Assembly (NCBI RefSeq): GCF_000007305.1
Contig: NC_003413.1
Location: forward strand, 1,662,141 to 1,726,140
Source: Pyrococcus furiosus DSM 3638
GTDB lineage: Archaea > Methanobacteriota_B > Thermococci > Thermococcales > Thermococcaceae
Direction: 5' to 3'
Length of the DNA stretch: 64,000 nt
Part shown: positions 2,947-4,943 of the stretch, piece after piece
Layout: every line of letters starts with the position of its first letter
How positions within the stretch are numbered: position 1 is the first letter of the stretch
Program-made: the position numbers and the translations under genes
The notes under the pieces: generated by a model
Told to the model about the DNA's origin: nothing
Database searches by the model: none
The model's input: the letters and a program-made list of their open reading frames with translations, nothing else

Positions 2947-3441
2947 ATGAAAGTTGGAGTGCTTAGTGACACCCACATTCCTAAAGCATATTTTCCTCCT
3001 CAAATATTTGAATTTTTAAAGAAGAGAAACGTTCAGTACATTATTCATGCAGGAGATATAACGAGTAAAGAGTTTTTAGAAAAGTTAGAGGAAGTAGCTC
3101 CAGTGATCGCAGTTAAGGGGAATATGGATAGAATTGATTTACCAGAAGAAGAAAAAATCGAAATTGGAAATTTCTCAATACTAATTTTACATGGACACCA
3201 GTTTCTCTCGCTAAACTTAGATAATTTAACTTACAAAGCCTTAGAAGAAGAGGTTGATATACTCGTTTTTGGACACACTCATAGGCCTTACTATAACGTA
3301 GTTAGAAGCTATGGTCGTGAAATAATTTTGTTAAATCCCGGCTCACCAACCCTTCCCAGGATGAGCGAGCCTACATTCGCTATATTAGAAGTGAGCAATG
3401 AGGACATTGATGTCCATTTTTATAACGTCTTTTCACTATAG
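2947..3441 (+). CDS. Metallophosphoesterase (YfcE/MJ0936-like phosphodiesterase)
   Basis: The 164-residue single-domain calcineurin-like phosphoesterase shows all five metal-binding blocks in order: LSDTHIP (DxH) near residue 6, GDI near 38, GNMD (GNxD) near 58, HGH near 80 and GHTH near 105. The family uses two divalent metals and hydrolyses phosphodiesters such as cyclic nucleotides in vitro. Its cellular substrate is not known. It follows gar1 after 18 nt, and its 3' end overlaps the convergent cas4 gene by 22 bp. Confidence 0.88.
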   Translation: MKVGVLSDTHIPKAYFPPQIFEFLKKRNVQYIIHAGDITSKEFLEKLEEVAPVIAVKGNMDRIDLPEEEKIEIGNFSILILHGHQFLSLNLDNLTYKALEEEVDILVFGHTHRPYYNVVRSYGREIILLNPGSPTLPRMSEPTFAILEVSNEDIDVHFYNVFSL

Positions 3442-4049
3442 AAAGACAAGAAAGACTGTGAGCAAAGGTAATTATATGGACAAAACTTACATGAAGGCCC
3501 TTTCCAAGCTGGTGGGAGAGAATCCTCTTTTATATACAATTTAAGTTCATAGAAGAATTTCACAGTCTCCTTAAATAGCGTTCCATCGTAGGGAACTTCG
3601 AATACCCTAAGGTGTTTTCCCTTAATTCTTGGAAACCCTCTAAAATCAATGCTTTCTACAATCCTCTCTGGATTATCGTGAAGTTTTACATAATAAATGA
3701 ATCCACGCTCAGCTTCGGCCCACCTCAAATATATGTTAAGCTGAGCCAAGTGATATTCAAGAGGAAATCTAGGAAGAATGGACTTCCCTTTAATCTCAAT
3801 AGGAAATTCCTTGTATGCATCCATTCTCCCATGAATCTCAAATCCCAACCTAGGAAACCTTAGTATCATGTGCTTTTCCAATTCAAAACCAAATTCGTCC
3901 CTCAGAATTTTACCCATAACTTCATGGGTCTTTACCCCTTTGTTCAACCTGGGAATAGCTATCTCGGGCCATTTTTCTGGAAAACCTTTAATTCTAAACC
4001 AAACCCTTCTTGGACATATTAAAGCTTCACTCGCATAAAATTCTATCAT
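3420..4049 (-). CDS. cas4: Orphan Cas4 family nuclease
   Basis: The 209-residue protein has the Cas4/RecB architecture. An N-terminal Cys (ALICPRR, residue 12) and a C-terminal CKFC-x5-C triad form a 4Fe-4S site. Nuclease motifs are HGRMD, the ExK of PIEIKGK, and QLNIY (QxxxY). Cas4 nucleases trim prespacers and set PAM, length and orientation during CRISPR spacer acquisition. No cas1, cas2 or array is present here, so it stands alone; the locus corresponds to the second P. furiosus Cas4. The 5' leader contains a C/D box sRNA (about 4066-4124), and GGAGGGA precedes ATG 4047-4049. Confidence 0.92.
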   Translation of the reverse strand: MIEFYASEALICPRRVWFRIKGFPEKWPEIAIPRLNKGVKTHEVMGKILRDEFGFELEKHMILRFPRLGFEIHGRMDAYKEFPIEIKGKSILPRFPLEYHLAQLNIYLRWAEAERGFIYYVKLHDNPERIVESIDFRGFPRIKGKHLRVFEVPYDGTLFKETVKFFYELKLYIKEDSLPPAWKGPSCKFCPYNYLCSQSFLSFYSEKTL

Positions 4050-4065: not shown

Positions 4066-4124
4066 AAGCGTCAGCTAATACCGACATCATCACCTTTCAG
4101 GCTGGGCAAGGCACATCATCCGCT
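4066..4124 (-). ncRNA. C/D box guide sRNA in the cas4 leader
   Basis: On the minus strand the order is: terminal stem AGCG (4124-4121), C box GATGATG (4120-4114), a 13-nt guide, D' box CTGA (4100-4097), C' box TGATGA (4092-4087), a 12-nt guide, D box CTGA (4074-4071), and closing stem CGCT. Spacing and order match archaeal 2'-O-methylation guides. Guides are GCCTTGCCCAGC before D' and GTCGGTATTAG before D, predicting methylation at the fifth paired base from each box. A TATA centred near 4149 would start transcription at about 4123, the observed 5' end. The targets were not identified. Confidence 0.82.
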
Positions 4125-4142
4125 AATCCTCTATACCGTAAG

Positions 4143-4152
4143 TGTTTTTAAG
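4143..4152. promoter_or_regulatory. Shared bidirectional TATA element for the two guide RNAs
   Basis: The only good TATA-like element between the C/D sRNA and the H/ACA RNA is TGTTTTTAAG. Its centre is about 25-26 nt from the 5' end of the plus-strand H/ACA RNA (4174) and of the minus-strand C/D sRNA (4124). Both distances equal normal archaeal TATA-to-start spacing, so one TBP site could serve both directions. This is inferred from geometry; a second AT-rich element at 4155-4172 cannot be excluded. Confidence 0.55.
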
Positions 4153-4173
4153 AATTTTATTGAATAATTTTAT

Positions 4174-4333
4174 GCCGACAGCGAGGGTACAATACCCTCG
4201 CAAGGGCTCGGTCAACCCGCCCCCGCAAGGTTTCGGGTTCGATGAGCGGGGTGTGCTCACGCCGAGCCTACAGGGCCGGTGCATCCGCCCGCGGGATCAA
4301 TGACCGCTGGGTCTCTGTTGCCGGCCCACAAAA
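4174..4333 (+). ncRNA. H/ACA box guide RNA (GC-rich, multi-hairpin)
   Basis: The tract is strikingly GC-rich in an AT-rich genome. A perfect hairpin sits at 4181-4201 (GCGAGGGTA/TACCCTCGC). A second unit has outer stem GGCTCGG (4205-4211)/CCGAGCC (4262-4268) followed by ACA at 4270-4272. A third has GGGCCGG (4273-4279)/CCGGCCC (4321-4327) followed by ACA at 4328-4330. The third unit has an upper stem capped by GA-TCAA-TGA, a k-loop for L7Ae, and 16 nt from pocket top to ACA, as required for pseudouridylation guides. It resembles the high-GC RNAs found in hyperthermophile screens. Targets are not assigned. Confidence 0.85.
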
Positions 4334-4335
4334 GT

Positions 4336-4370
4336 ATTTTAAATACACACTCTTATCGATAACTGGAGGT
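4336..4370 (+). promoter_or_regulatory. Promoter and ribosome site of the HTH-CBS gene
   Basis: TATTTTAAATAC directly follows the H/ACA RNA 3' end, and GGAGGT is at 4365-4370, ten bases before ATG 4380. Initiation about 25 nt below the TATA would give a very short leader beginning around the Shine-Dalgarno site. Confidence 0.5.
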
Positions 4371-4379
4371 TATTGAAAC

Positions 4380-4943
4380 ATGGTTATCATCCCAAGACCA
4401 ATAGATCCAAGGGATATTAGAAGGATAAGAAAGGAGTTAGGAATAACCCAGGAAGAACTAGCTAGAAAAGCAGGAGTTACTCAAGCATATATTGCAAAGT
4501 TAGAGGCTGGAAAAGTTGACCCTAGGCTTTCAACATTCAACAAAATTCTGAGAGCTTTGATAGAATGCCAAAAAGCAAAAATCACAGCAAAAGCAATAAT
4601 GTCATCTCCAATAATCTACGTAACCCCCACTGACAAAGTCGAGAAAGTCGTGAAGTTAATGAAGAAGTATAACATTTCCCAGGTGCCTGTAATAGAAAAA
4701 GATAGGGTTGTTGGCTCCATAACTGAGAGAATTTTAGTAAGAAGAAGTCTAGAAGAGGAGGACATATATTCAAAATCTGTAAAAGAAATAATGGAAGAAC
4801 CATTTCCTTTAGTCTCTGAAGACGAAGATTTGGAAGTTATAAAGTATTTGCTCGAAGAGCACCCTGCAGTTATAGTTCAAGGTAAAGATGGAAGGCCTAT
4901 TGGGATAATAACTCGTTCAGACATATTTAAGTTGAGAACCTAA
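4380..4943 (+). CDS. HTH (XRE) plus CBS-pair transcriptional regulator
   Basis: The 187-residue protein combines an XRE helix-turn-helix at residues 13-65 (ELGITQEELARKAGVTQAYI) with a tandem CBS domain at about 70-187 (IMSSPIIYVTPTD..., IMEEPFPLVSEDED...). CBS pairs usually bind adenosine nucleotides or SAM, so it probably couples DNA binding to a metabolite. It lies upstream of the proline dehydrogenase operon in the same direction, 66 nt before pdhA, and could regulate it. That link is only positional. Confidence 0.85.
   Translation: MVIIPRPIDPRDIRRIRKELGITQEELARKAGVTQAYIAKLEAGKVDPRLSTFNKILRALIECQKAKITAKAIMSSPIIYVTPTDKVEKVVKLMKKYNISQVPVIEKDRVVGSITERILVRRSLEEEDIYSKSVKEIMEEPFPLVSEDEDLEVIKYLLEEHPAVIVQGKDGRPIGIITRSDIFKLRT

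Follow-up and report, generated by a model that had tools for sequence, protein, structure and literature searches.

Two rRNA guide genes placed head to head around a predicted pseudo-symmetric TATA element in Pyrococcus

Two known rRNA-guide genes, a C/D box guide RNA on the minus strand and the H/ACA guide RNA HgcF (Pab35) on the plus strand, lie head to head between a cas4-like gene and an HTH-CBS gene in Pyrococcus furiosus (table 1). On balance, we favor the explanation that both are transcribed from one pseudo-symmetric TATA element, TTTTTAAGAA, which would seat the initiation complex in either orientation. In the plus orientation, transcription would start near 4174 and yield HgcF, a guide for 23S L2672 and L2549. 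In the minus orientation, it would start near 4125 and yield the C/D guide for two 16S 2'-O-methylations; this transcript would probably continue into cas4, with the guide doubling as an mRNA leader from which the C/D RNP might release it. The arrangement would have arisen on the Pyrococcus side by the joining of two modules that are apart in Thermococcus. The elements with direct support are the two RNA families, the conservation of the pair, the linkage of the C/D gene with cas4, the predicted TATA positions, and the pairing of guides with targets. Positions are those of the window, that is, the whole stretch of 64,000 nucleotides that was analysed.

Table 1. Features of the guide RNA pair and its neighbours in the window
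Feature	Position	Strand	Basis
cas4-like gene	3420..4049	minus	TIGR00372, 113.1 bits (cut-off 65); PADLOC Cas4
C/D box guide RNA	4068..4123	minus	Rfam snoPyro_CD RF00095, guide invariance, 16S pairing
D box CUGA	4074-4071	minus	sequence reading
C' box GUGAUGA	4093-4087	minus	sequence reading
D' box CUGA	4100-4097	minus	sequence reading
C box AUGAUGU	4119-4113	minus	sequence reading
TGTTTTTAAG, predicted TATA of HgcF	4143-4152	plus	last A 4151, 23 nt from 4174
pseudo-symmetric TATA element TTTTTAAGAA	4145..4154	both	matrix scan; putative function
HgcF / Pab35 H/ACA guide RNA	4174..4341	plus	Rfam RF00058, fold, P. abyssi transcript
ACA after second HgcF hairpin	4270-4272	plus	sequence/fold
ACA after third HgcF hairpin	4328-4330	plus	sequence/fold
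HTH-CBS gene	4380..4943	plus	Pfam HTH_3 and CBS; downstream of HgcF

Two guide RNAs of described families

The plus-strand RNA matches the Rfam family HgcF (RF00058) at 4174-4341 with 213.2 bits and an E value of 1.6e-51 at gathering thresholds, and the match extends over model positions 1-168 of 168. The stretch 4174-4333 folds into three hairpins at -83.3 kcal/mol (z -4.85) and is more stable than all of its shuffles (0/200 as stable). The multi-hairpin H/ACA RNA with two ACA boxes that the original prediction placed here is therefore borne out both by family and by fold, and its placement between cas4 and an HTH-CBS gene also agrees with the TIGR00372, PADLOC, and Pfam assignments. Beyond the covariance match to the whole RNA, we find pocketed hairpins with ACA that fit rRNA uridines. 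In a pocket scan, hairpins 2 and 3 fit 23S uridines 2698 and 2575, as counted within the bounds of the Rfam match, and each of these equals a published target of HgcF/Pab35, L2672 and L2549 (PMC4652768, as excerpted), plus 26. The L2672 site ranked first for hairpin 2 in one of six registers tried. The L2549 site ranked fourth to fifth for hairpin 3 in one of three registers and has one pair only on one side, a feature stated too for Pa35.2-L2549 in the excerpt of PMC4652768. The registers were set by hand, and other registers put other sites first; the scan agrees with the published targets and is no independent discovery of them.

The excerpted text of PMC4652768 gives a P. abyssi Pab35 transcript, seen by RNA-seq, at 318,227-410. 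The HgcF of locus L088 (genome G007) sits at these coordinates, and the RNA-seq start is 4 nt upstream of the Rfam start. HgcF is also named among the T. onnurineus transcripts in a passage of PMC5316973, and seven P. abyssi H/ACA genes were recovered by the screen described in a passage of PMC3124441.

The minus-strand RNA is matched end to end by snoPyro_CD (RF00095) at 4123-4068, with 55.9 bits (gathering score 45) and an E value of 5.2e-9 at gathering thresholds. Its C, D', C', and D boxes were read in the order that had been predicted, and its termini, GCG and CGC, are able to pair as a terminal stem. The last base of the C box is U in place of the consensus A. Guides complementary to a target RNA are present at both D' and D: with P. 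abyssi 16S, the D' guide forms 12 exact Watson-Crick base pairs, and the D guide, whose first base is unpaired, forms 11 pairs, of which 9 are Watson-Crick. Based on this pairing, the RNA is predicted to guide 2'-O-methylation at 16S G459 (D') and U488 (D) in P. abyssi numbering, counted from the start of the Rfam match. Both positions presumably belong to the 530-loop region.

These guides also bear on a quite different reading, in which the C/D-like sequence would act chiefly in cis, as a leader of cas4 that binds L7Ae, and would not work as a guide. The C/D sequence is indeed fixed in the cas4 leader, and some leader snoRNA predictions in the T. kodakarensis map may be cis-regulatory, as passages of PMC4247193 have it. 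However, both guide stretches are invariant in 9/9 Pyrococcus-type loci while the D'-C' loop varies, and together with the pairing to 16S this leaves a chiefly cis-acting role very improbable in our view.

A further C/D RNA, sR52 (RF01306, 87.5 bits), is found at 2892-2949 on the plus strand of the window, a span that includes the 3' end of gar1 (2614-2928) as well as the ATG (2947) of a gene of the yfcE family. It is matched too in L176 and L181, and in L183 below gathering score. The Gar1 and Phr proteins encoded nearby align along their full length with solved P. furiosus chains, 2hvy_B and 2p4w_A.

Conservation of the pair and the cas4 leader

HgcF is matched in 91/94 family genomes at E up to 0.001, and in 90 of them above cut-off. 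We surveyed the DNA upstream of HgcF at 90 loci, which comprise the window and 89 of these 90 genomes; G001 was left out, its contig beginning inside HgcF. By box pattern, an opposite-strand C/D gene lies upstream of HgcF in nine of the 90 loci (the window, L084-L090, and L101), and none was recognised in the other 81, a count that C/D genes with odd boxes could escape. We take the nine paired loci for Pyrococcus, and the protein tree described below is among the grounds. The C box and HgcF are 53-55 nt apart in seven of them, 42 nt in L085, which we take for P. horikoshii, and 79 nt in L090 (genome G014), which we take for P. yayanosii. A head-to-head pair throughout the family is ruled out, given that 81/90 loci are without a C/D gene there by box pattern and that a covariance model places the C/D gene elsewhere in the genomes read. 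The pair is kept in Pyrococcus and is not seen in the sister genus Thermococcus. Conservation in relatives, which had been proposed as a check, thus holds for the nine Pyrococcus-type loci and does not extend to genome G026, presumably that of T. kodakarensis, which has both RNAs about 1 megabase apart. In G001, a close relative, two contig edges (C70/C93) were found, one contig beginning inside HgcF and the other ending inside the C/D gene, as if the assembly broke between the pair.

The covariance model, built from the C/D RNA and searched in the 94 genomes, found matches in 92 of them at E up to 0.001, some of which are weak. We fetched 87 C/D loci, namely 86 matches of at least 60 bits and the one at the contig edge of G001. 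By tblastn, cas4 was found in 84 of the 87 and was not found at L241, L255, and L258. The C/D gene is readable by box pattern in 83 of the 87 (that of G001 in part only), and cas4 lies downstream on the same strand in 83/83, Pyrococcus included. An HTH-CBS gene is found downstream of HgcF in 65/90 loci; an obligatory link between the two is unsupported, with 25/90 loci having no match in the stretch fetched. Because the C/D gene elsewhere in the family sits at another locus, directly upstream of a cas4-like gene, we regard Pyrococcus as the place where two modules meet, one of the C/D gene and cas4 and the other of HgcF, often with HTH-CBS.

The cas4-like protein has no match to a Pfam family at 0.001. 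The ATG of its gene has GGAGGG in front of it and follows the end of the C/D match at a distance of 18 nt. The guide's own TATA-like site is outscored by none between the C/D start and this ATG, neither in 8/8 Pyrococcus-type loci (L101 was left out) nor in 75/75 other loci, in a test that is biased by the GC-rich, conserved guide; a separate cas4 promoter behind the guide is unsupported at all of these loci. Because there is no better TATA-like site in this interval, cas4 is probably read through the guide, which would make the C/D RNA the leader of the cas4 mRNA as well. On the other side of the pair, the HTH-CBS gene has a weak TATA-like site of its own, which scores 6.6 in the window and 3.7-6.9 over the nine Pyrococcus-type loci.

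The T. kodakarensis map includes snoRNAs in 5' leaders and possible cis-acting K-turns (PMC4247193, in passages), and L7Ae is reported to control its own mRNA via a leader K-turn (PMC6298567). At 55 of the 75 pattern-readable non-Pyrococcus loci, for example L198, the C/D gene and cas4 have between them a GC-rich hairpin whose core (GAGG, loop, CC, nAUGA) is K-turn-like; the Pyrococcus loci L177 and L183, chance fits to the loose K-turn pattern, are not in this count. Among 36 distinct but related sequences, standard pairing is kept in 247/252 cells of its seven stem pairs; three of the pairs show changes on both sides, and the stem is for the most part nearly unvarying. Eight such loci were scanned, and the hairpin matched no Rfam family at 0.01. 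Our guess from the motif is that this Thermococcus leader hairpin may bind L7Ae. The steady link of a 16S methylation guide to a cas4-like gene, along with the K-turn-like hairpin that many Thermococcus have between the two, prompts the question whether RNP proteins control cas4; no paper on this was recognised among the literature matches listed. At L185, a fluoride riboswitch match (RF01734, 53.2 bits) occupies 1281-1356 of the minus strand; the C/D-cas4 unit is on the other strand there, with the start of the C/D gene about 145 nt away.

Predicted TATA geometry between the two starts

Starts were predicted by placing the last TATA adenine 23 bp upstream, a rule taken from the excerpted text of PMC6640164, with HgcF nucleotide 1 taken as the plus start. 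The plus core, TTTTTAA, spans 4145-4151, and the best-scoring minus core, TTCTTAA, spans 4154-4148 with its last A 23 nt from 4125, so that TTAA at 4148-4151 is common to both. The bounds first predicted for the RNAs thus stand for the plus start at 4174 and shift slightly elsewhere, with a predicted minus start at 4125 rather than 4124 and an HgcF match that runs past 4333 to 4341. With the P. abyssi RNA-seq start of HgcF, the distance to the TATA would be 19 rather than 23 nt.

For the TATA matrix, we aligned 53 distinct HgcF promoters, drawn from 80 non-Pyrococcus loci, on the TTTTTAA-like core; L170 was left out for an HgcF start that is out of line. The matrix is weakly selective, sites of at least 6 occurring at 2.6 per kb per strand in flanking DNA; the site of the window scores 6.3 on the plus and 7.0 on the minus strand. 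In 9/9 spacers the best minus-strand site falls 28-30 nt before the C box, with scores of 3.5-12.8. Of 2000 mononucleotide shuffles per spacer, 0.1% to 6.8% score as high, the 6.8% being that of L085. The nine loci are related, hence these are not nine independent tests. In seven of the nine, the minus core and the HgcF core share 3-4 bp, and the predicted distance between starts is 49 bp in all seven despite a 2-nt variation in spacer length. The cores are fully separate in L085 and L090, whose predicted starts lie 38 bp and 73 bp apart, respectively. The single shared TATA of the original prediction is accordingly supported as sequence in 7/9 loci, whereas one TATA in every Pyrococcus is ruled out by the separate boxes of the other two, where sharing would be dispensable. 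Plus scores are 6.3-10.5 where the cores overlap and 12.8 and 13.8 where they are separate, a drop that may be the price of sharing.

Published work on P. furiosus attributes pairs of starts some 50 bp apart to one TATA; the case assayed in vitro had 49 bp, and the genome-wide spacing of bidirectional starts peaks at roughly 50 bp (excerpted text of PMC6640164). The agreement of the constant 49 bp with this published spacing argues against a mere overlap or abutment of two promoters, in which each RNA would have a TATA and a BRE to itself and the shared bases would be a by-product of a short spacer. The separate boxes in two loci and the offset of the best cores in the other seven, which share 3-4 bp, do speak for such a pair of promoters. 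We consider this possible but doubtful, as one TBP would not easily sit on two cores with a common TTAA at once. It is likely, judging from the sequences, that a single TATA serves both directions.

The minus-strand site could also be a chance occurrence, the C/D RNA being trimmed from a longer minus transcript begun elsewhere. According to the passages of a review (PMC7994747), most archaeal C/D genes sit within longer precursors and can do without a dedicated promoter; a TATA-like motif is present in about 20%, and many overlap protein genes. Yet any start further upstream would fall in or beyond HgcF, and a TATA-like site before the guide is found at the right distance in 9/9 Pyrococcus-type loci and is the better site in 75/75 others (median 9.7). 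We therefore judge trimming from such a transcript to be quite unlikely and retain the single TATA element as our preferred explanation.

In a tree of the cas4 and HTH-CBS proteins, G014 (L090) groups with the two Thermococcus rows (100/99), and the genome of L085 falls within the other eight. The simplest promoter history would run from separate boxes to overlap and then to a second separation.

We also put forward, as a speculation to which we give little credence as a whole, that one TBP site used in one orientation at a time could tie the supply of a 16S methylation guide to that of a 23S pseudouridylation guide and also feed the mRNA of the Cas4-like protein, with the methylation guide as its leader. 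Guide RNP assembly on the nascent leader would decide between guide and mRNA, and the Thermococcus K-turn hairpin would let L7Ae control cas4. Coupled supply to both ribosomal subunits is offered as an idea.

Comparison with known guide genes and promoters

Both RNAs belong to described families; the parts are ordinary, and their fusion is a modest novelty. The plus-strand RNA is itself identical in kind to HgcF / Pab35 (RF00058), the neighbour on the opposite strand being the sole difference, and the minus-strand RNA differs from snoPyro_CD in nothing that matters, the U at the end of its C box included. We found no description of this pair or of the cas4 leader among the literature matches listed, which cover titles, abstract starts, and passages.

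The pair is not unique as a divergent pair of guides, a possibility that is ruled out by sR34 and sR12. These are two guide genes head to head at three loci, at 247-354 of L265 with 2 nt between matches and at about 301-446 of L263 and L264 with 36 nt. In contrast to the pair described here, both are C/D RNAs, and with 2 or 36 nt between matches the 49-bp geometry does not fit. Pab21 and snoR9 of P. abyssi, as described in the excerpt of PMC4652768, resemble our pair in that an H/ACA and a C/D guide are made from one place, but theirs are on the same strand in one transcript and are not divergent.

In its predicted geometry, the pair resembles the bidirectional BRE-TATA-BRE promoters of P. furiosus described in the excerpted text of PMC6640164, in which one TATA has starts about 50 bp apart, 49 measured there in vitro and 49 predicted here. 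The second product is regarded as antisense noise at those promoters; here both products are conserved guide RNAs. If both RNAs start from one TATA, this would be a natural bidirectional archaeal promoter with two conserved working RNAs, as against the published view of the second product as mostly noise, and the relatives with overlapping, separate, and unlinked promoters would provide a ready comparison of the cost of orientation choice.
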